Shown piece after piece: positions 61,113 to 61,295 of a DNA stretch of 64,000 nucleotides. A program made the translations under genes and the position numbers. The stretch comes from Siniperca chuatsi (Eukaryota; Chordata; Actinopteri; Centrarchiformes; Sinipercidae): assembly GCF_020085105.1 (NCBI RefSeq), contig NC_058045.1:9937833-10001832 (forward strand), in the 5' to 3' direction. Position 1 is the stretch's first letter; each line of letters starts with the position of its first letter. The notes under the pieces are model-generated. The model was given only the letters and a program-made list of their open reading frames with translations, was not told where the DNA came from and did no database searches.

Positions 61113-61295
61113 CAGATTGTTGGTCGGTTTCTGTCTCTGTGCATCCAGATTGGAAACTGCTGCCAAGCGAGGAGCTCCAGGAGACCGAGTGGCTGATGGT
61201 GGGATTGATAGGAACATGCCTGTCGGCTCCAGAAGAGCTGGAGGCCTGACTCTCCAGCAGGGGCAGGAACATACAGTTGTCCCGATGACATGATC
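61113..61295 (-). other. Candidate upstream coding exon, phase-compatible with ano3 exon 2
   Basis: Bounded by TTTTGCAG| and |GTGAGT on the minus strand, exactly 183 bases (61 codons, phase 1 to phase 1). The frame that ends in phase 1 is open throughout, Ser-rich (ASSSSGADRH, SWSSSLGSSFQSG, TETETDQQS) and strongly biased to C or G at third positions, unlike its surroundings. Joined to ano3 coding exon 2 it would read ...[14 protein letters not shown]. An internal ATG (MFLPLLESQ) could start translation. It could also belong to an unrelated gene running in from the right. The (TG)n tract just before the acceptor is unusual. Confidence 0.45.

Follow-up and report, generated by a model that had tools for sequence, protein, structure and literature searches.

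A candidate distal exon upstream of fish ano3 that could encode a longer ANO3 N-terminus

The window, a 64,000-nucleotide stretch of a Siniperca chuatsi contig (C4:9937833-10001832; genome of 719 Mb in 65 contigs), was analysed together with 120 kb added on its right (C4:10001000-10120999). The resulting 183-kb region is numbered in extended window coordinates. A tblastn search with human ANO3 placed ano3 on the minus strand, from the first exon encoding MVHHSGS (57811-57766) to ~29173; human residues ~77-141 found no match within 29173..45700. The features discussed here are the following:

29173..45700, minus strand: further ano3 exons, mostly located by tblastn with human ANO3; boundaries approximate
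48348..48554, minus strand: ano3 exon 2, with an acceptor common to both first exons; the 3' end at 48348 is predicted
57766..57811, minus strand: coding portion of the first exon of canonical ano3 (15 residues + 1 nt), which the proposed isoform would skip
61113..61295, minus strand: candidate exon of 183 nt, symmetric (phase 1-1), which translates in the ano3 frame as SCHRDNCMFLPLLESQASSSSGADRHVPINPTISHSVSWSSSLGSSFQSGCTETETDQQS; recognised by its splice sites, phase and frame
61296..61325, minus strand: acceptor tract (TG)11 T4 GCAG, a UG repeat at a 3' splice site like that of CFTR exon 9

The MVHHSGS exon lies in a CpG-rich stretch (57601-58300; GC 0.48-0.52, CpG observed/expected 0.66-0.81), which is likely the canonical ano3 promoter. 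Between ano3 exon 2 and the next recognised exon, a further 150-nt segment of the minus strand (47512-47661) has a strong acceptor and donor and an open phase 1-1 frame (...HEDEAAQ); it could be a cassette exon or a chance pair.

To the right of the 183-nt element, svip occupies the plus strand (66889-68416), and gas2 follows on the minus strand, where the match to human GAS2 extends to residue 310, at ~73.8 kb. The gap between gas2 and the element is ~12 kb. Exons further right presumably belong to slc17a6, a GPCR gene, ano5, another anoctamin gene, sigirr and pkp3, which gives the order ano3 - svip - gas2 - slc17a6 - GPCR - ano5 - further anoctamin - sigirr - pkp3. We take these neighbours to be split over two separate blocks of human 11p, and LUZP2 to be the upstream neighbour of human ANO3; no LUZP2 match at E <= 1 was found in the 183 kb. 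With gas2 complete and svip on the opposite strand, ano3 is the likeliest owner of the element.

The element starts with GATCAT, and its borders on the minus strand read (TG)11TTTTGCAG/GATCATGTC...CAATCTG/GTGAGT. Scored with vertebrate weight matrices, its acceptor reached 9.27 and its donor 11.15. On the minus strand between 29 and 61 kb, an acceptor score of at least 9 was found at 33 of 2036 AG sites, and a donor score of at least 10 at 5 of 1944 GT sites. The splice sites and phase are compatible with ano3 exon 2. An earlier note on this DNA had described an acceptor after a TG tract, a donor 183 bases on and phase 1-1, and all of these are present at 61295 and 61113. The joined translation likewise confirmed that the element runs in frame into exon 2 at 48554, just as the MVHHSGS exon does. 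The Ser-rich reading reported there was also recovered in the ano3 frame (SCHRDNC...TDQQS). The GC content of the element is 0.552; the 200-bp bin that holds it stands at 0.55 vs 0.345 in the adjoining bin, in a setting of 35-40% GC.

Two further claims of that note, one open frame and a strong third-position C/G bias, did not survive. None of the three minus-strand frames is interrupted by a stop within the element, and GC3 is 0.617 in the claimed frame vs 0.567 and 0.475 in the others. In trials with a first-order model of the element's composition, all three frames stayed open in 0.6% of cases and the ano3 frame alone in 20%. A first codon score, in which the ano3 frame came second at -0.1 (the other two at 4.3 and -5.4), had been trained on anoctamin sequence, largely transmembrane segments, and was replaced. 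Its successor, a synonymous-codon score derived from 2659 codons in 44 regional exons, placed the true frame on top in 44 of 44 leave-one-out tests and above 0.15 in 37 of 44, with wrong frames exceeding 0.15 in 4 of 88. Against the AT-rich background, the ano3 frame reached 0.195 per codon by this score, and the other two 0.088 and -0.071. With the exon's own composition as background, the ano3 frame scored 1.3 and the others 2.54 and -0.09, and 42% of GC-matched simulated sequences open in the ano3 frame scored as high. The codon evidence is therefore GC content, since the advantage of the ano3 frame vanishes after GC matching; coding status thus rests on phase, frame and layout, and a coding nature is not proven.

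How often chance yields such a pair was estimated for an acceptor of at least 9.2 and a donor of at least 11.1, 60-400 nt apart, enclosing an open 1-1 frame. On the minus strand from 57.9 to 73.8 kb, the 183-nt element is the sole such pair. A Markov-4 simulation of 4 Mb produced one, equivalent to 0.004 per 15.9 kb, a rough figure from a single event. The real 183 kb contains three on the minus strand (the element, 47512-47661 and 151388-151480) and none on the plus strand. The two others were not recognised as exons; if both are false, the rate is ~0.09 per 15.9 kb of strand, so the simulation flatters the element. With the cut relaxed (acceptor at least 7, donor at least 9), three pairs were found on the minus strand of the same interval, and only the element has an open frame.

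The 719-Mb genome returned a single match to the peptide and likewise a single match to the DNA taken with short flanks. The element thus shows no sign of being a repeat, and a repeat search that left out simple repeats reported none near it. Single copy and gene order are established, as are the splice signals, phase and frame given above. No second ano3 copy was found in the genome, where the exon 2 peptide matched itself and, at chance level, two stop-containing sequences (E 0.57 and 5.7). A search for relatives of the element's peptide returned nothing of note in PDB (two antibody light chains, E 0.68 and 2), and among bacterial/archaeal and viral contigs, where none were expected, it gave 196 and 31 pattern matches, none of them confirmed. 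Pfam returned no family for any of the three proteins submitted.

Three other explanations were weighed. The element might be a non-coding distal 5' UTR leader exon of ano3, with translation starting at the ATG that heads exon 2 and giving a short N-terminus. Codon usage that is not decisively coding would fit this, as would the opening of exon 2 (GC-ATG, in frame) and the existence in human of a short isoform that has a UTR of its own (PMC9611045). The open frame and its matching phase count against a leader. The first ATG of the element (ATCATGT) is moreover out of the ano3 frame and opens a reading frame without a stop along the element or before the predicted end of exon 2, beyond which it continues (ORFs 61109-61327 and 48335-48586), and so long an overlapping upstream ORF would depress translation. 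We regard a leader exon as unlikely.

The ~12 kb that separate the element from gas2, and a peptide without family match, leave room for a separate transcript (an unannotated gene, a lncRNA or gas2 read-through) that is symmetric by coincidence. Against this, gas2 matches nearly to its C-terminus, svip is on the opposite strand, and no other minus-strand pair at the relaxed cut between gas2 and the MVHHSGS exon is open; this reading appears improbable. About as improbable is a pseudo-exon, namely a chance GC-rich stretch that borrows its acceptor from a (TG)n microsatellite and is never spliced in. The acceptor tract is indeed a microsatellite, and two other equally scored 1-1 pairs occur in the 183 kb of both strands, but the donor is near-maximal, the GC step coincides with the exon border, and the position agrees, by analogy, with the human layout described below.

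We consider it likely that the 183-nt element is an ano3 coding exon, used in transcripts whose distal promoter would lie upstream of the MVHHSGS exon; its transcription, partner exons, coding and function are what we infer. The isoform envisaged in the earlier note, distally initiated and skipping the MVHHSGS exon, stands as the best reading, with a human isoform of the same layout, while the support it drew from a single frame and a strong bias falls away. In this model, transcription would begin at the distal promoter, and a short upstream coding exon would supply the start codon. That exon would be spliced to 61295-61113 and on to exon 2 at 48554, past the MVHHSGS exon. Skipping is expected because no acceptor within 300 nt upstream of that exon scores above 5.3. 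The product would exchange the first 15 residues of ANO3 for ~74, forming a cytosolic N-terminus that is rich in Ser and probably disordered. If human isoform 1 is a guide, such an exchange would alter surface delivery and hence phospholipid scrambling.

A candidate for the first exon of this isoform was found ~1.4 kb past the window:

65448-65409 (extended coordinates), minus strand: candidate distal first exon, encoding MEVKVSQALGSSA/G

It reads ATGGAAGTCAAGG...CCGCAG/GTAGGT, with a strong-Kozak ATG, phase 1 and a donor score of 10.7; its predicted end at 65409 corresponds to C4:10003241. Among strong-Kozak phase-1 candidates with a donor of at least 10.6, it is the only one between svip and the 183-nt element, and one of four on both strands of the region. 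Four in the region correspond to ~0.06 expected in 5.5 kb, with thresholds chosen after the candidate had been seen. Out-of-frame ATGs lie upstream of the start at 65448, one of them 5 nt before it. We offer 65448-65409 as a proposal for the first exon rather than a finding. A search from 61.3 to 183 kb for first exons of exactly 46 nt (donor at least 6), the coding length that a 183-nt human exon 2 would imply for human exon 1, returned 79772 (inside gas2), 114915 and 159893, and none between ano3 and gas2.

The 183 kb hold 11 tracts of at least six TG on the minus strand and 8 on the plus strand. At least two of them directly precede the acceptor of an exon or candidate exon: that of the 183-nt element and that of a plus-strand anoctamin exon at 139841. 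No run of at least four TG was present at any of the 23 other minus-strand acceptors tested. At the 139841 exon, a member of the anoctamin family, the TG tract is followed by TTCTCATGTCAG at the acceptor. At CFTR exon 9, TDP-43 binds a (TG)m(T)n tract of many TG and few T and causes the exon to be skipped, and a TG11-T5 minigene served as a borderline case (PMC12171016). The fish (TG)11T4, which immediately precedes the AG of the 3' splice site, resembles that minigene and likewise has many TG and few T. The likeness is one of sequence only, and the fish acceptor may be used efficiently. In TDP-43-depleted mouse forebrain, Ano3 was somewhat lower (-0.33 and -0.67 in one table row); these data concern level rather than splicing and are silent on the 183-nt element (PMC6440020). 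Mouse Ano3 also has p53-dependent, radiation-induced transcript variants (PMC4359739), and any link between them and the element would be speculative. The UG-repeat acceptor points to one testable regulator. A fuller proposal would be that TDP-43 represses the (TG)11T4 acceptor, that microsatellite length and TDP-43 together set the amount of surface, scrambling-competent ANO3 in fish neurons, and that the long N-terminus, found only in humans in the literature searched, dates to the fish-mammal ancestor. We consider this combination unlikely.

A longer N-terminal isoform of the kind mentioned in the earlier note for mammals exists as human ANO3 isoform 1 (NM_001313726 / NP_001300655). In two gene panels, ANO3 variants follow the numbering of NM_001313726.1 (PMC9266298, PMC9696564), and another report gives ANO3 27 exons and lists c.2917G>C G973R in a table naming NM_031418 (PMC7020335). 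The equivalence of c.3100G>C G1034R on NM_001313726 with this variant gives a net difference of +183 nt, and the variant residues 213, 453, 886, 984 and 1034 all (5 of 5) match human ANO3 shifted by 61. In an AnnotSV row, version 2 of NM_001313726 starts at chr11:26188807 (GRCh38), ends at 26663289 and has 28 exons; a variant at 26289562-26289683 is placed in intron 1, inside the CDS, with the nearest splice site (3') 19,961 bases away (PMC12779367). Since intron 1 lies inside the CDS, the start codon of NM_001313726 falls in exon 1. Exon 2 of this transcript would begin near 26,309,644. If NM_031418 starts near 26,332,130 (GRCh38), as we assume, human exon 2 lies ~22 kb upstream of the MVHHSGS exon.

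Isoform 1 starts with ATGTCAGTTTTAAAATTTGAACTG (the forward primer, first 24 nt) rather than with MVHHSGS, and its first residues are MSVLKFEL (PMC9611045). Amplification from human brain cDNA yielded it in lower amount than isoform 2, and its N-terminus is longer than that of mouse and rat TMEM16C; isoform 3, the shortest, is active too (PMC9611045). In 293T cells, isoform 1 exceeded the MVHHSGS form in surface delivery and lipid scrambling: surface ratios for isoforms 1, 2 and 3 were 0.46, 0.10 and 0.45 untagged and 1.63, 0.52 and 0.52 with a GFP tag, and 23.5%, 2.8% and 10.3% of cells showed scrambling (PMC9611045). The effect of the long N-terminus is not cleanly separated here, because the shortest isoform, 3, equals isoform 1 at the surface when untagged, and isoforms 2 and 3 are equal when GFP-tagged. 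What the human data show is a MVHHSGS form that is poor at the surface, not the long N-terminus alone as the cause. The rodent equivalent of this poorly delivered form is the one on which many studies of activity relied (PMC9611045). A fish counterpart of the long form, if true, would suggest an ancient origin rather than a human peculiarity, and fish models could then test its role in neurons.

The fish locus, as proposed, and human ANO3 isoform 1, as annotated, would share a distal start, one further upstream exon, replacement of MVHHSGS by a longer N-terminus, and an exon count one above that of the canonical form (28 vs 27 in human). In position, the fish 183-nt element lies upstream of the MVHHSGS exon with a first exon that is a candidate only; the human position comes from one annotation row and an assumed NM_031418 start. 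Human MSVLKFEL, searched on both strands of the 183 kb, gave scattered best scores, several with internal stops, and no convincing match, judged without a formal null; the fish candidate exon 1 is unlike it. The equality of 183 nt is weak, because the human +183 is a net figure (exon 1 coding + exon 2 - 46); for it to reflect an exon 2 of 183 nt, exon 1 would need 46 coding nt. Orthology of the fish element with the upstream exon of human isoform 1 is close to evenly balanced. As a long ANO3 form is already known in human, the fish exon is plausible and largely expected biology. The element is probably a real distal ano3 exon that gives a longer N-terminus, and the fish counterpart, in layout, of the known human isoform.
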